Shown: one piece after another, positions 4,757 through 45,722 of the stretch | Numbering within the stretch: position 1 is the stretch's first letter | How the letters are laid out: every line of letters begins with the position of its first letter | NCBI RefSeq assembly: GCF_001509405.1 | Contig: NZ_CP011502.1 | Coordinates: forward strand, 2,790,001 to 2,854,000 | DNA: 64,000 nt | Source of the DNA: Aeromicrobium erythreum | GTDB taxonomy: Bacteria > Actinomycetota > Actinomycetes > Propionibacteriales > Nocardioidaceae | Direction: 5' to 3' | Translations under genes and position numbers: made by a program | The notes under the pieces: model-generated | Told to the model about the DNA's origin: nothing | The model's database searches: none | What the model saw: only the letters and a program-made list of their open reading frames with translations

Positions 4757-5758
4757 CTAGGGCGTGGTGCCCGGCGGTTCGTCCTCGTCCTTCTCGAAAC
4801 GAGCCTCGATCACCTGGAAGCCCTTGTGCCGCTGCGCCTTCGCGTAGGCCGTGTAGGCGCGCTCGTCGGCCTCGGTGAGCTCGACGTTGTCGGTGAACGG
4901 CGTCAGCAGCGCGCGGGGGTACAGGTGTCGGCGCAGCACCACGTTGAGCTCCAGCGCCATGACGACGAGCACGGCCGCGACGAAGATGAACGCGAGCAGC
5001 CCGAGGACCAGCGCGAACGTCTGGTTGACCGTCTGGCTCGCGCGGTTGATCACGCGCGTCACGTAGGAGTTGCCGGCCAGCTGCAGCAGCTGCCAGCCGA
5101 CGGCGGCGAAGATCGCGCCGGGCAGCACCGAGCGGGTGTGCGCCCGTCCCGCGCTCACCAGGCGGAAGAGACCGACGAAGATCGCGGCGGTGAGCACGAA
5201 GCCGGTACCGCGCACGATCCACCCGGTGGCGGGCCCGACGAGTCCCCCGAACGCGTCGGGGTTGGCCAGCACCGACGTCGCGACGGCGAGCACGAGGATG
5301 CCGATGCCGGCGATGGCGAGGAAGATCAGGCTCCGCAGCCGCATGAGGAACGGGTTGGCGCGACTGTTGCGCGGGACCGACCACGCGATGTTCGCGGCGT
5401 TCTGCGCGGCCTGGCCGAGCCCCATCGCACCGTAGAGGGCCGCGATCGAACCCACGACGATCGCCGTCGTGCTGCCCTGCAGGCCCTGCTCGCTGCCGAG
5501 CTGGTCGCCGACGATCGGGAACTGGCTCAGCGCCGTGTTCAGCAGGCTCTCGCGCAGCTGCGGGTCGCCCTGCAGCACGAAGCCCAGGATCGACGTCGAG
5601 ATGAGCAGCAGGGGGAACACCGCGACGAACGCGTAGTAGGTGACGATCGCCGCCAGGTAGGGGCCCTGGTCGTCGAAGTACTTGTAGATCACCGCGAGCG
5701 GCAGCCCGACGAACCGGTGCCGACGCTGGAAGCGGTCGACCTTGTCGACGGCGCTCAT
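4757..5758 (-). CDS. YihY/BrkB-family inner-membrane protein
   Basis: A 333-residue protein with about six hydrophobic helices between residues 30 and 275 and a charged C-terminal tail. It carries YihY/UPF0761 hallmarks: YLAAIVTYYAFVAVFPLLL near residue 35, ALYGAMGLGQAAQNAAN near 110 and the final helix leading to LELNVVLRR. The family was once called ribonuclease BN, but membrane topology argues for a transport or envelope role. Start chosen at the ATG at 5758, whose codon overlaps the stop of the upstream PemK-like gene (ATGA), implying translational coupling. Confidence 0.88.
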   Translation of the reverse strand: MSAVDKVDRFQRRHRFVGLPLAVIYKYFDDQGPYLAAIVTYYAFVAVFPLLLISTSILGFVLQGDPQLRESLLNTALSQFPIVGDQLGSEQGLQGSTTAIVVGSIAALYGAMGLGQAAQNAANIAWSVPRNSRANPFLMRLRSLIFLAIAGIGILVLAVATSVLANPDAFGGLVGPATGWIVRGTGFVLTAAIFVGLFRLVSAGRAHTRSVLPGAIFAAVGWQLLQLAGNSYVTRVINRASQTVNQTFALVLGLLAFIFVAAVLVVMALELNVVLRRHLYPRALLTPFTDNVELTEADERAYTAYAKAQRHKGFQVIEARFEKDEDEPPGTTP

Positions 5759-6138
5759 GCCAGCTCGAGGTGCTCTGCCGCGGCCGCGAGCACCGCCGCG
5801 AACCGGGGCTCGTCGAGCACGGCACCCTCGCGACGCACCGCGTCGGGGTCGACGTCGATGAGCCGGTTCACCCGCACCTCGCTGGGTCGGCCCTGCGCGT
5901 CCCACGGCCCGGACCCGATGTCGAGCCAGAAGCGACCGTCACGCGCCTCCTGGGCTGCGTCGCGGTCGTGGTCCTTCGACGTGAGCATCAGCCCGACGAG
6001 CCGCGCGCCGTCGCGTCCGACGACCAGGACCGGGCGGTCCTTGCCCTGCGCGGGGTCGTCCTCGTACGGCACCCAGGTCCACACGATCTCCCCCGGATCG
6101 GGCCGTCCGTCGGGCTTCGGCGCATACGTCAGGTCCAC
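5755..6138 (-). CDS. PemK/MazF-like protein without visible antitoxin
   Basis: A 127-residue protein. The GTG at 6138 is preferred because GGGAGG ends 8 nt before it; an in-frame GTG at 6156 would add six residues. The N-terminal GEIVWTWVPYEDDPAQGKDRP segment and the following VLVVGRDG strand match the PemK-like beta-barrel (MazF/PemK ribonucleases and relatives). No antitoxin gene precedes it; the upstream DNA is repeat array 1. Its stop overlaps the YihY-type start, so it may be a housekeeping relative of the family rather than an addiction toxin. Toxin activity is not shown. Confidence 0.7.
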   Translation of the reverse strand: MDLTYAPKPDGRPDPGEIVWTWVPYEDDPAQGKDRPVLVVGRDGARLVGLMLTSKDHDRDAAQEARDGRFWLDIGSGPWDAQGRPSEVRVNRLIDVDPDAVRREGAVLDEPRFAAVLAAAAEHLELA

Positions 6139-6198
6139 GGCGACAGCCTCCCACACGCCTGCGGCACGGGCCTGACGACGGGATCCGCGGACGGTTCC

Positions 6199-7690
6199 GC
6201 TCGTCGAGTAGTCAGGACGAGCTTGCGAAGCCCTGACGTCGAGACCCCCGGCAACAGATCGGCGCGAGCCAACCCCCGGCGACTGCCTGGAGTGGTCTCG
6301 ATACGCCTCCGCCAGCTCCTACGTCGCGGCGTCGACTACTCGACCAGCGAAGTCCTCCGCTGGTCGAGTAGCGGCACGCGCGACGAAGGAGCGCCGTGGC
6401 CGCGTATCGAGACCACCCGGCAACAGATCAGCGCAAACCAGCCCCCAGCGACACCCCAGAGTGGTCTCGATACGCCCGGAGCACGCTCGTCCCTCGCGGC
6501 TCCGCGCTACTCGACCAGCGAAGTCCTCCGCTGGTCGAGGAGCGGCCACGCGCGACGAAGGAGCGCCGTGGCCGCGTATCGAGACCACCCGGCAACAGAT
6601 CAGCGCAAACCAGCCCCCAGCGACACCCCAGAGTGGTCTCGATACGCCCGGAGCACGCTCGTCCCTCGCGGCTCCGCGCTACTCGACCAGCGAAGCGTTC
6701 CGCTGGTCGAGTAGCGCCCACGCGCGACGAAGGAGCGCCGTGGCTGCGTATCGAGACCACCCGGCAACAGCCCAGCGCGGGCCAACCCACAGCGAACGCT
6801 TGGAGTGGTCTCGATACGTCCCCGCCAGCTCCTCCGTCGCGGCGTCGACTACTCGACCAACGAAACCCACCGCTGGTCGAGTAGTCAGGACGAGCTTGCG
6901 AAGTCCTGACGTATCGAGACCACCCGGCAACAGCCCAGCGCGGGCCAACCCCCAGCGACCGCCTGGAGTGGTCTCGATACGCCCGGAGCACGCTCGTCCC
7001 TCGCGGCTCCGCGCTACTCGACCAGCGCGATCGCTGGTCGAGTAGCGGCGACGGCGAGCGCCAGCGAGCACGTCGGTGCGTATCGAGAGCACCCGGCAAT
7101 GGCTCAGCGCGGACCAGCCCCCAGCGACCGCTTGGAGTGGTCTCGATACGCCCGGAGCACGCTCGTCCCTCGCGGCTCCGCGCTACTCGACCAGCGAAGC
7201 GTTCCGCTGGTCGAGTAGCGACCACGCGCGGCGAAGGAGCGCCGTGGCCGCATATCGAGACCACCCGGCAACAGCCCAGCGCGGGCCAGCCCCCAGCGAC
7301 AGCGTGGAGTGGTCTCGACCTCCGCCAGCTCCTTCGTCGCGGCGTCGACTACTCGACCAACGAAACCCACCGCTGGTCGAGTAGTCAGGACGAGCTTGCG
7401 AAGTCCTGACGTATCGAGACCACCCGGCAACCGATCAGCGCGATCCCACCCCCAGCGACAGCCCAGAGTGGTCTCGATACGCCCGGAGCACGCTCGTCCC
7501 TCGCGGCTCCGCGCTACTCGACCAGCGAAACGTTCCGCTGGTCGAGTAGCAGGGACGAGCTTGCGAGGTCCCTGCGTATCGAGACCACTCGGCAACGGCT
7601 CGGCGCGGGGCAGGTGGAGGCACCGGGGCCTGGACGCTTGCCAGGTCTCGATACAGCGGGACGCCTTCGGCGTGCACCACTCGACCCGAC
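6199..7690. repeat. Repeat array 1: ~8 full nested-palindrome units plus terminal halves
   Basis: A gene-free 1.5-kb region made of head-to-tail units with a period of 159-173 bp. Palindromic cores begin at 6294, 6463, 6635, 6807, 6970, 7139, 7311 and 7470, with a final left half at 7643 and an initial right half at 6199-6246. Each core has outer arms GGTCTCGATACG / CGTATCGAGACC and inner arms CTACTCGACCAGCG / CGCTGGTCGAGTAG separated by a mostly 8-bp spacer. A conserved ~48-bp linker (starting ACCCGGCAAC, ending GGAGT) joins successive cores. Apparent open frames here are by-products of the repeat. Confidence 0.93.
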
Positions 7691-7727
7691 TGACCCGCTC
7701 GGGCGCGGAGCGCCCTCGGGGTCAGTC
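7688..7727. terminator. Hairpin overlapping the acyl-CoA synthetase stop codon
   Basis: Arms GACTGACCC (7688-7696) and GGGTCAGTC (7719-7727) with an inner GGGCGC/GCGCCC pairing. It lies at the 3' end of the minus-strand synthetase gene, overlapping its stop codon. There is no T tract on the minus strand, so it may be a factor-dependent terminator or an RNA-stabilising hairpin. Confidence 0.55.
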
Positions 7728-9314
7728 GAACTCGGGGAGCTCGCGCTTCATGACCTTGCCCGTGGGGTTGCGGGGCAGCTCGTCGAGGAACTTGGTCCGA
7801 CGCGGCACGGCGAAGCGGGCGACCCGCTCCTTGGCGTAGGAGACGACCTCGTCCTCGTCGAGCGACGCGCCGTCCTTGACCACCACGTAGGCGGCAAGGC
7901 AGTGGCCCCAGTCGGGGTCGGGCACGCCGACGACCACGACGTCGGTGATGGACGGGTGGCCGATGAGCGCGTCCTCCAGCTCGCGGGGGAACACGTTCTC
8001 GCCGCCGGAGATGATCATGTCGTCGTCGCGGCCCGCCACGAACAGGCGGCCGTCCTCGTCGAAGTAGCCGAGGTCGCCCGTGTGCATGAGTCCGTCGCGG
8101 AAGTCCTTGGTGTTGCCGTCGGTGTAGCCGCCGAACTGCATCTCGTTGCCGACGTAGATGACACCCGTCTCGCCCGGCGGCAGCTCGTTGCCGTCGGTGT
8201 CGAGGATCTTCGCGACCGTGCGCCACGGCACGCGACCCGCGGTGCCGGGTGCCGCGCGCAGGTCCTCCGGCGAGGCGATGGACACCCAGCCGGTCTCGGT
8301 GGCGCCGTAGAAGTTGTAGACCGAGTCGGTGAAGCGGTCCATGAAGTCGATCGCCAGGTCACCGGCGAGCGCCGAGCCGCTCGAGGCGGTGATGCGCAGG
8401 CTGGAGACGTCGTAGCGGTCGGCCACCTCGCGGTCGAGGTTCACCAGACGCTGCATCATCAGCGGCACGACGACGAGCACCTCGGCCTTGTACCGGTCGA
8501 TGTCCTCGAGGACCTGCGCGGGATCGAACTTGCGGCGCAGGACGTAGGTCGGGACGGTCGAGAGGCCGAACCCGAAGTTGATGAGGCCCCACGAGTGGAA
8601 CAGCGGCGCGGCCAGCACGACCGTGGAGTTGCCGTGGTACGGGATGGACCCGAAGAAGGTGAGGAGCGGGTCGAGGTTCTCCGGCTCCTTGCGGTTCGCG
8701 CCCTTCGGCAGCCCGGTGGTGCCGGAGGTGAAGATGACGATGCCGCCCGGCTTGGACGGCTTCTTGTGGTCGTCGGTCGGCTGCCCCTCGGCGAGGCCCG
8801 ACAGGGTCGGCAGGCCGTGGGAGTCGTCGTCGGCCCACGCCACGACGACGAGGTCGCGGTCGATCTCGGACGTGACCTTGAGGAACTCCTGGTCGACGAT
8901 GGCGAACTTGGCGCCCTCGCGTCGCGTGAGCTCGCCGAGCTGGGAGGCGCTGGCCATCGTGTTGAGCAGCAGCACCTTCGCGCCGATCTGCATGATCGAG
9001 ACCATCGAGACCACCATCCAGCGGTGGTTGCGTCCCATGAGCGCGACCGCGTCACCGACCTGCACGCCGCGGGCCTTGAGCGCGGCCGTCGTCTGGTTGA
9101 TCTCGTCGCGCAGCTCGGCCCACGTGATCTCGCCGGCGTCGTCGATGATCGCGGTCTGGTTCGGGAAGCGGGCGGCCGCCGCGGCCACAGCCGACGGGAA
9201 GCCGGGGCCCCAGGTGGCGAGCTTGATGCCCGCCTTGAGGAGCCGGTGGGGCGGCTGGACCTTGAGGAGGCCGATCTGTCGCAGGACCTTCAGCTTGTAG
9301 GCGATGTCACTCAT
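7722..9314 (-). CDS. Acyl-CoA synthetase (AMP-dependent ligase, FadD-like)
   Basis: A 530-residue ANL-superfamily enzyme. The AMP-binding P-loop TSGTTGLPKG is at about residues 196-205. The later motifs YGATETGW, TGDLGYFDEDG, GRDDDMIISGGENVFP and the C-terminal catalytic-lysine segment NPTGKVMKREL are all present. It should activate a carboxylic acid to an acyl-AMP and then an acyl-CoA; a long-chain fatty acid is likely by resemblance but chain length is not readable. The start ATG has a GAGGAG ribosome-binding site. It is separated from the surface-polysaccharide locus upstream by only 74 bp, which hold an inverted repeat, so it may be a separate transcription unit. Confidence 0.88.
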   Translation of the reverse strand: MSDIAYKLKVLRQIGLLKVQPPHRLLKAGIKLATWGPGFPSAVAAAAARFPNQTAIIDDAGEITWAELRDEINQTTAALKARGVQVGDAVALMGRNHRWMVVSMVSIMQIGAKVLLLNTMASASQLGELTRREGAKFAIVDQEFLKVTSEIDRDLVVVAWADDDSHGLPTLSGLAEGQPTDDHKKPSKPGGIVIFTSGTTGLPKGANRKEPENLDPLLTFFGSIPYHGNSTVVLAAPLFHSWGLINFGFGLSTVPTYVLRRKFDPAQVLEDIDRYKAEVLVVVPLMMQRLVNLDREVADRYDVSSLRITASSGSALAGDLAIDFMDRFTDSVYNFYGATETGWVSIASPEDLRAAPGTAGRVPWRTVAKILDTDGNELPPGETGVIYVGNEMQFGGYTDGNTKDFRDGLMHTGDLGYFDEDGRLFVAGRDDDMIISGGENVFPRELEDALIGHPSITDVVVVGVPDPDWGHCLAAYVVVKDGASLDEDEVVSYAKERVARFAVPRRTKFLDELPRNPTGKVMKRELPEFD

Positions 9315-27566: not shown

Positions 27567-28592
27567 TACCGCTGGTCGAGTCGTCCGACCAGTGACACGC
27601 TCCGCTGGTCGAGCAGCGGCCACGCGCTGGGGGCACCTCCCGCTTGCGGGGGCGGAACGAGCGCCTTGAATGCGTATCGAGACCACCCGGCAACCGCCCA
27701 GCGCGAACCAATCCCCAGCGACAGCCCAGAGTGGTCTCGATACGTCTCCGCCAGCTCCTCCGTCGCAGCGTCGACTACTCGACCAGCAAAGGATTCCGCT
27801 GGTCGAGTAGCAGGGACGAGCTTGCGAGGTCCCTGCGTATCGAGACCACCCGGCAACAGCCCAGCGCGAGCCAACCCCCAGCGACAGCCCAGAGTGGTCT
27901 CGATACGTCTCCGCCAGCTCCTCCGTCGCAGCGTCGACTACTCGACCAGCAAAGGATTCCGCTGGTCGAGTAGCAGGGACGAGCTTGCGAGGTCCCTGCG
28001 TATCGAGACCACCCGGCAACAGCCCAGCGCGAGCCAACCCCCAGCGACCACCCAGAGTGGTCTCGATACACCTCCCCTCGCTGGCGCTCGTGGAGGCACT
28101 CGACCAGCGGTGGATTCCGCTGGTCGAGTAGCGGCACGCGCGACGAAGGAGCGCCGTGGCCGCGTATCGAGACCACCCCGCAACGGACCAGCGCGGGCCA
28201 ACCCCCAGCGACGGCCTGGAGTGGTCTCGATACACCTCCCCTCGCTGGCGCTCGTGGAGGCACTCGACAAGCGGTGGATTCCGCTGGTCGAGCAGCAGGG
28301 ACGAGCTTGCGAGGTCCCTGCGTATCGAGACCACCCCGCAACGGCCCAGCGCAGGCCAACCCCCAGCGACCGCTGGGTGTGGTCTCGATACACCTCCCCT
28401 CGCTGGCGCTCGTGGAGGCACTCGACCAGCGGTGAATTCCGCTGGTCGAGTAGCAGGGACGAGCTTGCGAGGTCCCTGCGTATCGAGACCACCCGGCAAC
28501 AGCCCAGCGCGAGCCAACCCCCAGCGACGGCTGGGAGTGGTCTCGATACACCTCCCCTCGCTGGCGCTCGTGGAGGCACTCGACCAGCGGGA
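27567..28592. repeat. Repeat array 2: five full nested-palindrome units plus terminal halves
   Basis: Same family as the array at 6199-7690. Cores begin at 27733, 27896, 28059, 28223 and 28381, a final left half begins at 28539, and right-half remnants lie at 27567-27684. Outer arms, inner arms and the conserved ACCC(G/C)GCAAC linker are shared with array 1. The left arms of cores C-F carry a different hairpin cassette (CACCTCC...GGAGG) that array 1 lacks. The array fills the interval between the dehydrogenase operator and the GAF regulator stop, so no gene is expected here. Confidence 0.93.
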
Positions 28593-45092: not shown

Positions 45093-45282
45093 CTGCTGGG
45101 CGTCGTCCTGCGGGTGCGCTGCCGCGGGGGTCTGGGCGTGCTGGTGCGCTGCCGCGGGAGGGTCTGGGCTTGCTGGTGCGCTGCCCCCGGGGGGTCTCGT
45201 CGTGCTGGTGCGATGCCTCGGGGGGTCCGGGCTTGCTGGTGCGCTGGCGCAGGTGGTCTGGGCTTGCTGGTGCGCTGCCTCG
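45093..45282. repeat. Six tandem ~31-bp repeats
   Basis: Degenerate units with a consensus around GGGCTTGCTGGTGCGCTGCC repeat every 30-32 bp; the TGCGCT anchors end near 45120, 45150, 45182, 45213, 45245 and 45276. The period is not a multiple of three and units vary freely, so it is not coding. Reverse-complement versions occur near 37460-37545 in copy A. Confidence 0.85.
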
Positions 45283-45297
45283 GCTCTCGCTGGGGGT

Positions 45298-45722
45298 GGT
45301 CTCCGAAAGGCCTCGACCGGGCAGCTGGCGGGCGCGGTGGCCCGGGTTCTCGGGCTGTGGCTCGCGGGGGACGCAAGATTCTGCGTTCGTGCATTAAAGG
45401 GCGAACACTTCTGCGTTTCCTACGGGATCCCGTCGCGAACGCAGAAGCGTTCGGGATACAACGCACGTCCGACCCCGCCGGCGTTTCTGTGGCAGATCCA
45501 CCGCTGAGGGGGCGCAAACGCAGATTCTTGCGTCCACCCCCAGCACCAAGCCGCAGCCCGAGACCCCAGACCAGCGCGGTCGCCAGCCGCCCGGTCGAGG
45601 CCCTTTCGGAGCGCAGGACGAGTCGAAGCCGCACCAACGCAGCCCCACCCGAACGAGGAGCTGCGCCAGCGCACCCCCACCCGAACAACAAGCCGCAGCA
45701 GCGCAGCCGCAGGTCGAAGCTC
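45298..45722. repeat. Long palindromic element, copy B (uninterrupted)
   Basis: An imperfect inverted repeat centred near 45440. The outer left arm at 45298-45320 (starting GGTCTCCGAAAGG) mirrors 45591-45611 (starting CCGGTCGAGGCCC). Inner arms include ACGCAAGATTCTGCG against CGCAGATTCTTGCGT, then CTTCTGCGTT (45408-45417) against AACGCAGAAG (45438-45447), around the perfect palindrome ACGGGATCCCGT (45422-45433). It lies between the convergent coaA and GNAT genes. No gene is visible. Confidence 0.82.

Follow-up and report, generated by a model that had tools for sequence, protein, structure and literature searches.

Intergenic BIME-like arrays of palindromes in Aeromicrobium erythreum are polarised with respect to replication and linked to a DUF222-HNH gene

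An array of palindromes in a 64-kb stretch of the Aeromicrobium erythreum chromosome (the window; positions 2790001-2854000 of the single-contig genome of 3,629,239 bp, G000 among the genomes compared) belongs to a dispersed family of repetitive extragenic palindromic (REP) sequences and is a bacterial interspersed mosaic element (BIME) by anatomy. The arrays of this family are oriented with respect to replication, and some of them stand directly upstream of copies of a 1.3-kb gene, hereafter D1, which encodes a DUF222 protein with HNH-type residues. REP/BIME repeats are usually explained by REP-associated tyrosine transposases (RAYTs). Here, BIME-grade arrays occur with no detectable RAYT, with sharp polarity and in physical linkage to a candidate enzyme whose large protein family has no assigned function, which makes testable both what drives REPs in the absence of RAYTs and what role the DUF222-HNH proteins play. 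We tentatively favour a BIME/REPIN-like system without a RAYT, in which D1 is the likely driver and free arrays (those not attached to D1 or its remnant) enter via single strands at replication forks, and we give this reading a little less than an even chance.

The array occupies positions 6202-7686 of the window and lies in plus orientation, as defined by its asymmetric linker. Motif mapping resolves it into 18 REP-like palindromes, nine GTAG-first (REP+) and nine reverse (REP-) in strict alternation, together with nine linkers, and Tandem Repeats Finder (TRF) calls it at 6239-7550 with a period of 172, 7.8 copies and 80% matches. Read in GTAG-first orientation, each REP consists of GGTCGAGTAG, a self-complementary inner part and CGTATCGAGACC in that order, with GTAG adjoining an imperfect hairpin as in REPs of the RAYT type. 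Neighbouring REPs stand head to head over a spacer, usually of 8 bp but in one case of 4 bp (within 7024-7035), and tail to tail over the asymmetric linker of about 48 nt; eight of the linkers are found at no more than 3 mismatches and the ninth (6247-6293) is a variant. A preliminary description of this DNA had proposed nested palindromes with a period of about 159-173 bp that can be read in a linker-centred register, a nearly constant 8-bp spacer and an array beginning with a right half and ending with a left half, all of which agrees with the TRF call and the motif map, the last half-unit (7644-7686) being diverged. In its behaviour the element resembles a REP/BIME mosaic, and whether its tandem repeat is divided into linker-centred or palindrome-centred units is a matter of register.

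Folding was computed for one of the palindrome pairs. The 128-nt pair at 6633-6760 (plus strand) folds as single-stranded DNA into a cloverleaf with a 15-bp outer stem, two side hairpins and a 16-bp central hairpin, with energies of -54.5 and -55.6 kcal/mol on the two strands (z about -8.5). None of 200 shuffles folded as well as the pair (-54.5 kcal/mol, z = -8.5), and a 16-mer of the linker occurs 184 times in the genome at no more than 2 mismatches, as compared to 2 occurrences of a reversed-pattern control; chance is therefore excluded and the array is real. An Rfam search returned no family and only two sub-threshold microRNA matches.

These 184 linkers make the element dispersed, in agreement with the preliminary description, rather than a single-locus expansion. 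We mapped 175 of them, within 611 kb of the genome examined, and they form 27 single-orientation arrays of at least two linkers, one mixed array at 669875 (two hits, one of them with 3 mismatches) and seven single copies with REPs; the array at 3062334 is classed as single-orientation with a nineteenth hit, at 3 mismatches, on the opposite strand. Gene predictions place the arrays in intergenic DNA; they come from a home-made gene caller that gives a few antisense shadow open reading frames and a few flanking calls overlapping an array edge. REPs located 5' of the linker (170 copies, 74 inner types) and 3' of it (116 copies, 66 types) share no inner type at all. In 73% of the 160 distinct inner types compared, six or more of the 7 arm pairs can form, as compared to 23% when the arms are swapped between types, with G-U pairs and small offsets allowed in the real and swapped sets alike. 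Two classes of palindromes alternating inverted in tandem, in many dispersed intergenic copies, are the features of BIME-2, and the family is a BIME on this anatomy.

Orientation of the arrays follows replication. The dnaA gene lies at 1.4 kb, and the terminus was tentatively placed at 1,862,367, the only dif-like site that a search with a dif-like consensus gave; GC skew is too weak to place it, and TA skew is noisy but may change sign closer to 2.28 Mb. Arrays are in minus orientation on the right replichore and in plus orientation on the left in 24 of 27 cases (Fisher 6.9e-5). When five arrays attached to D1 or to a D1 remnant are left out, an exclusion chosen after the data were seen, 21 of the 22 free arrays obey the rule (Fisher 2.8e-5); both tests treat arrays as independent. 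The switch in the orientation of free arrays falls between 1.67 and 2.42 Mb, which fits both the dif-like site and the TA-skew position, and because no free array lies within this interval the counts do not depend on the exact terminus. The D1-attached arrays (3 of 5) and the single copies (3 of 7) obey far less regularly. As a side observation, the positions of the 22 free arrays depart from a uniform distribution, with a shift toward the origin (Kolmogorov-Smirnov p = 0.009).

Gene direction was considered as a cause of array orientation. In convergent and divergent contexts, in which gene direction is unable to dictate orientation, all 14 free arrays obey the polarity, and gene direction is rejected as the cause there. 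It is not fully rejected for tandem genes: of the 8 free arrays in this context, 7 follow the polarity and an equal number run antisense to the genes, leaving the two effects inseparable. Orthologous array pairs between the genome under study and either of two close relatives (G026 and G039) have the same orientation in 35 of 35 cases; these relatives therefore give no independent test of the polarity.

D1 is present in four copies in the genome, the other three being 91-95% identical in protein sequence to the first, and an array immediately precedes each copy on its 5' side and points the same way. G026 and G039 carry D1 at the same loci, and counting all three strains there are five D1 loci directly behind an array. 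The fifth, locus V, whose flanks we interpret as hisH and hisA, contains D1 in both relatives, while in A. erythreum all that is left of it behind the array is the 3'-terminal stretch of about 39 nt, stop included (about 2218384-2218422); the gene was lost here and is present in the two relatives. REPs stand directly 5' of D1 in all 14 copies whose upstream DNA was examined (four, five and five in G000, G026 and G039), the last linker running into the D1 leader in 12 of them and the array ending in a REP in the other two (loci I and III of G039). One D1 locus (1857703-1862383) comes within about 3 kb of the dif-like site, and a D1-like gene of G018 shares one of its flanks.

The D1 copies are homogenised within genomes. 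In a comparison of 12 full-length D1 genes, mean identity is 92.4% between paralogues of one genome, 87.1% between genomes at the same locus and 86.9% between genomes at different loci, and the tree groups the genes by genome with support of 96/99 for G026, 96/100 for G039 and only 72/90 for G000. Since paralogues are closer than same-locus copies, the tree follows the genomes and the DNA flanking the D1 loci shows, for the most part, about 88-96% identity from genome to genome, the D1 copies are rewritten within each genome by concerted evolution. This matches the description, in the part of a preprint available to us (PMC13061034), of REP13E12 repeats as a gene-conversion hotspot in M. tuberculosis.

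The protein contains a DUF222 domain (PF02720, E 2.1e-17), and no Pfam HNH match to it was found at E <= 1. Among 50 D1 homologues, HNH-type residues are conserved, C320, C325 and H370 being invariant and D335, H336, N361, C366 and H369 nearly so, and the HNH enzymes TagI and McrA match the C-terminal part of the D1 structure model. In the model, a predicted ParB/Noc-like DNA-binding domain, which may be a helix-turn-helix of the ParB/Noc/KorB type, precedes a predicted HNH nuclease. A sequence search of solved structures gave nothing convincing, the viral fold library gave no match at E <= 0.001 and NCBIfam holds no family for D1.

The distribution of the family was followed in 49 genomes of the genus, A. 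erythreum included, and 396 sampled genomes of the same phylum. Linkers at no more than 1 mismatch number 170 in G000, 79 in G026 and 55 in G039, which form one clade, and 0-2 in each of the other genus genomes. Among the matches listed, D1 at 86% identity or more occurs in exactly these three linker-rich congeners; G018 has one D1-like copy at 67% identity without REPs upstream, and the remaining listed matches in the genus are at most 44% identical. A partial D1, 90% identical, is recorded under Microbacterium sp. CnD16-F (P0014), which may reflect contamination or transfer. Array length differs between orthologous loci: the array at 3062334 has 18 linkers in A. erythreum and 2 in G039, and the window's own array has 8 as compared to 2 at the orthologous G039 locus.

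Beyond the genus, the arms do recur in other high-GC actinobacteria, as the preliminary description had noted, although REPs with the exact ends occur in only 4 of the 396 same-phylum genomes, A. erythreum included. Three genomes of other genera (G411, G246 and G278) carry REPs with the same ends and other hairpins, and no linker at no more than 3 mismatches was found in 11 stretches (162 kb) of these genomes; in G014, REPs upstream of a DUF222 gene are again without the linker. These observations bear on the earlier proposal of a miniature inverted-repeat transposable element (MITE) with CGCTGGTCGAG terminal inverted repeats, which a DDE-type transposase would move. Its dispersed, intergenic copies with inverted repeats would suit such an element. 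However, ends and interior do not move as a unit, the arms being present without the linker in the stretches of all three other-genus genomes and in G014, an outcome that the preliminary description had itself named as refuting; no clean empty site or target duplication was found at the sites compared between A. erythreum and its relatives, locus V being a D1 deletion rather than an empty site and the 138.6-kb site of G039 corresponding to other DNA in A. erythreum; and double-stranded cut-and-paste is not expected to give replichore polarity. A MITE is therefore highly improbable, the enzymes sought genome-wide being Y1_Tnp and DUF222 and not DDE transposases with these ends.

DUF222 genes themselves are widespread, with PF02720 present in 47 of the 49 genus genomes in 1-20 copies each. 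REPs different from those of A. erythreum stand upstream of DUF222 genes at three of eight loci in G011 (one 26-mer), a fourth, overlapping locus being recognised by a related motif, and at the one locus examined in each of G025 and G014. In G011 and G025, arrays of another REP (a hairpin around TGAGCTTGTCGAA, with a linker of about 75 nt) were seen upstream of DUF222 genes. DUF222 genes also form multi-copy families in G047 and G011, whose members become homologous some 110-440 nt ahead of the DUF222 domain and remain so until about 1.2 kb past its start.

Other features of the window complete the picture. The typical linker (ACCCGGCAACAG...AGCGAC...GAGT, about 48 nt, asymmetric) is exemplified at 6415-6462 on the plus strand, with further linkers at 6587-6634, 6759-6806, 6922-6969, 7091-7138, 7263-7310 and 7422-7469 and variant linkers at 6247-6293 and 7587-7643. 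An example of a palindrome pair in plus orientation is 6294-6414, comprising a REP- at 6294-6345, the 8-bp spacer region and a REP+ at 6362-6414. The terminal half-unit at 7644-7686 is in minus orientation, and DNA resembling it is present elsewhere in the genome, for example at 379730-379792 and 2290404-2290465. The array is flanked by a PemK/MazF-like gene on the left (5758-6156, minus strand; PF02452, E 6.8e-11) and an acyl-CoA synthetase (AMP-binding) gene on the right (7725-9314, minus strand; PF00501, E 3.8e-62). A second array of the same family, with 6 linkers and a 158-bp period, lies at 27574-28585 (genome 2817679-2818485) in plus orientation like the first. At 45103-45283 and 45626-45705, in GC-rich DNA, TRF also reports short tandem repeats that are not related to the arrays and have units of 31-32 bp.

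It seems plausible to hypothesize that D1 binds the REP palindromes and then nicks or cuts them. Recombination repair of such breaks would keep copying D1, and the arrays with it, among loci, the copying among the D1 genes being visible in their concerted evolution, and array growth and shrinkage would follow from the same breaks. Free arrays would be planted by a single-stranded, fork-coupled step and would therefore share one orientation relative to replication; if so, the polarity is a genomic readout of strand-specific insertion at forks. The linkage of D1 to the arrays hints at a route for the spread of such repeats that has so far gone unrecognised. In a rival reading, an unknown enzyme mobilises the REP/BIME arrays and the D1 association is hitchhiking, an array having landed upstream of D1 once and been copied along. 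It is favoured by the occurrence of REPs in other genera with no DUF222 gene nearby, by the lack of REPs upstream of the D1-like gene of G018, and by the possibility that one insertion gave the overlap of linker and leader. We regard such hitchhiking as rather unlikely, given that G011, G025 and G014 have other REPs in front of distant DUF222 genes and that the predicted layout of the D1 model is that of a DNA-binder with a nuclease. A wider form of the D1 hypothesis, in which DUF222-HNH proteins are the actinobacterial counterpart of RAYTs, that is, palindrome-binding nucleases which maintain, amplify and spread REP/BIME arrays, with free arrays going in on a defined strand at forks, is possible but somewhat doubtful. 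It would provide a function for a family found throughout most of the genus and for the mycobacterial REP13E12 repeats. It has to contend with at least two strong hairpins being present upstream only at the four D1 copies of A. erythreum among 81 DUF222 locus rows (some of which overlap), and with a search with 120 DUF222 homologues that found no DUF222 gene near the REPs in the 11 stretches of G411, G246 and G278, where the arrangement of REPs was mapped in search of a REP-flanked gene and the genes tested were DUF222.

A classical RAYT-driven system, its transposase since lost or too divergent to be detected, would account for the hairpins in GTAG-first form, the doublets in inverted orientation, the alternation of two classes and the sorting of tandem arrays by chromosome half. 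Y1_Tnp and DUF222 were the enzyme families searched for genome-wide, and Y1_Tnp is found at E <= 0.001 in none of the 49 genus genomes; six genomes that carry REPs likewise yield nothing over the cut-off, their best match being at E = 0.46. The high-GC Actinobacteridae in the sample of Quentin 2018 have, in the accessible text, only IS200-type members (subclass 1.1) and no TnpA_REP. A hidden RAYT is thus improbable, and with Y1 transposases undetected in the genus, these searches place the family outside the RAYT-REP systems by membership. The polarity could alternatively be kept by selection, with arrays marking direction for segregation, fork progress or supercoiling. In favour of this are the strong polarity seen whatever the direction of the genes where these are convergent or divergent, and the constant orientation of the orthologous pairs. 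Selection nevertheless appears quite improbable, as arrays occur in number in just 3 of 49 congeners, are sparse toward the terminus, where segregation signals are expected to act, and disregard the rule when single or D1-linked.

No openly licensed PubMed Central paper was found with GGTCTCGATACG or TTCGACAAGCTCA, nor one joining REP sequences, RAYT and Actinobacteria, or repetitive extragenic palindromic, Actinobacteria and HNH endonuclease; a description of this array family was thus not found in that collection. The nearest anatomical relative is E. coli BIME-2, described in the accessible text of PMC2817692 as alternating inverted REPs of two classes (Y and Z units), tandem and intergenic. 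The A. erythreum REPs likewise alternate inverted in two classes with two kinds of spacer, in tandem and between genes, with GTAG by an imperfect hairpin. They differ in having conserved outer ends of 10-12 nt and a DUF222-HNH gene beside the arrays, and no Y1 HUH transposase comparable to TnpA_REP is detectable in the genus. For polarity itself, a partial precedent exists in the REPIN tandem arrays (GI-GIII) of P. fluorescens SBW25, of which five are forward at about 2 Mb and six reverse at about 4 Mb (Bertels and Rainey 2011, PMC3116915). Those arrays are similarly REP doublets sorted by chromosome half; unlike the present ones they are accompanied by RAYTs, and the portion of that paper seen contains no test of gene direction. 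Polarity is what single-strand, lagging-strand insertion would lead one to expect. IS200/IS605 elements are described, in the part of PMC6006769 consulted, as inserting into the lagging-strand template, which would yield replication-oriented copies as observed here. In contrast to those elements, TnpA (Y1_Tnp) is undetected and no coding element bounded by REP ends is seen, except possibly D1. The accessible part of the DIVE paper (PMC10589994) groups mycobacterial REP13E12 with HNH endonuclease/DUF222 and mentions no REP arrays for it, in which it differs from the present system. By this comparison of descriptions, D1 resembles the REP13E12/13E12-repeat elements in belonging to the same Pfam family, in being multi-copy and in being homogenised.
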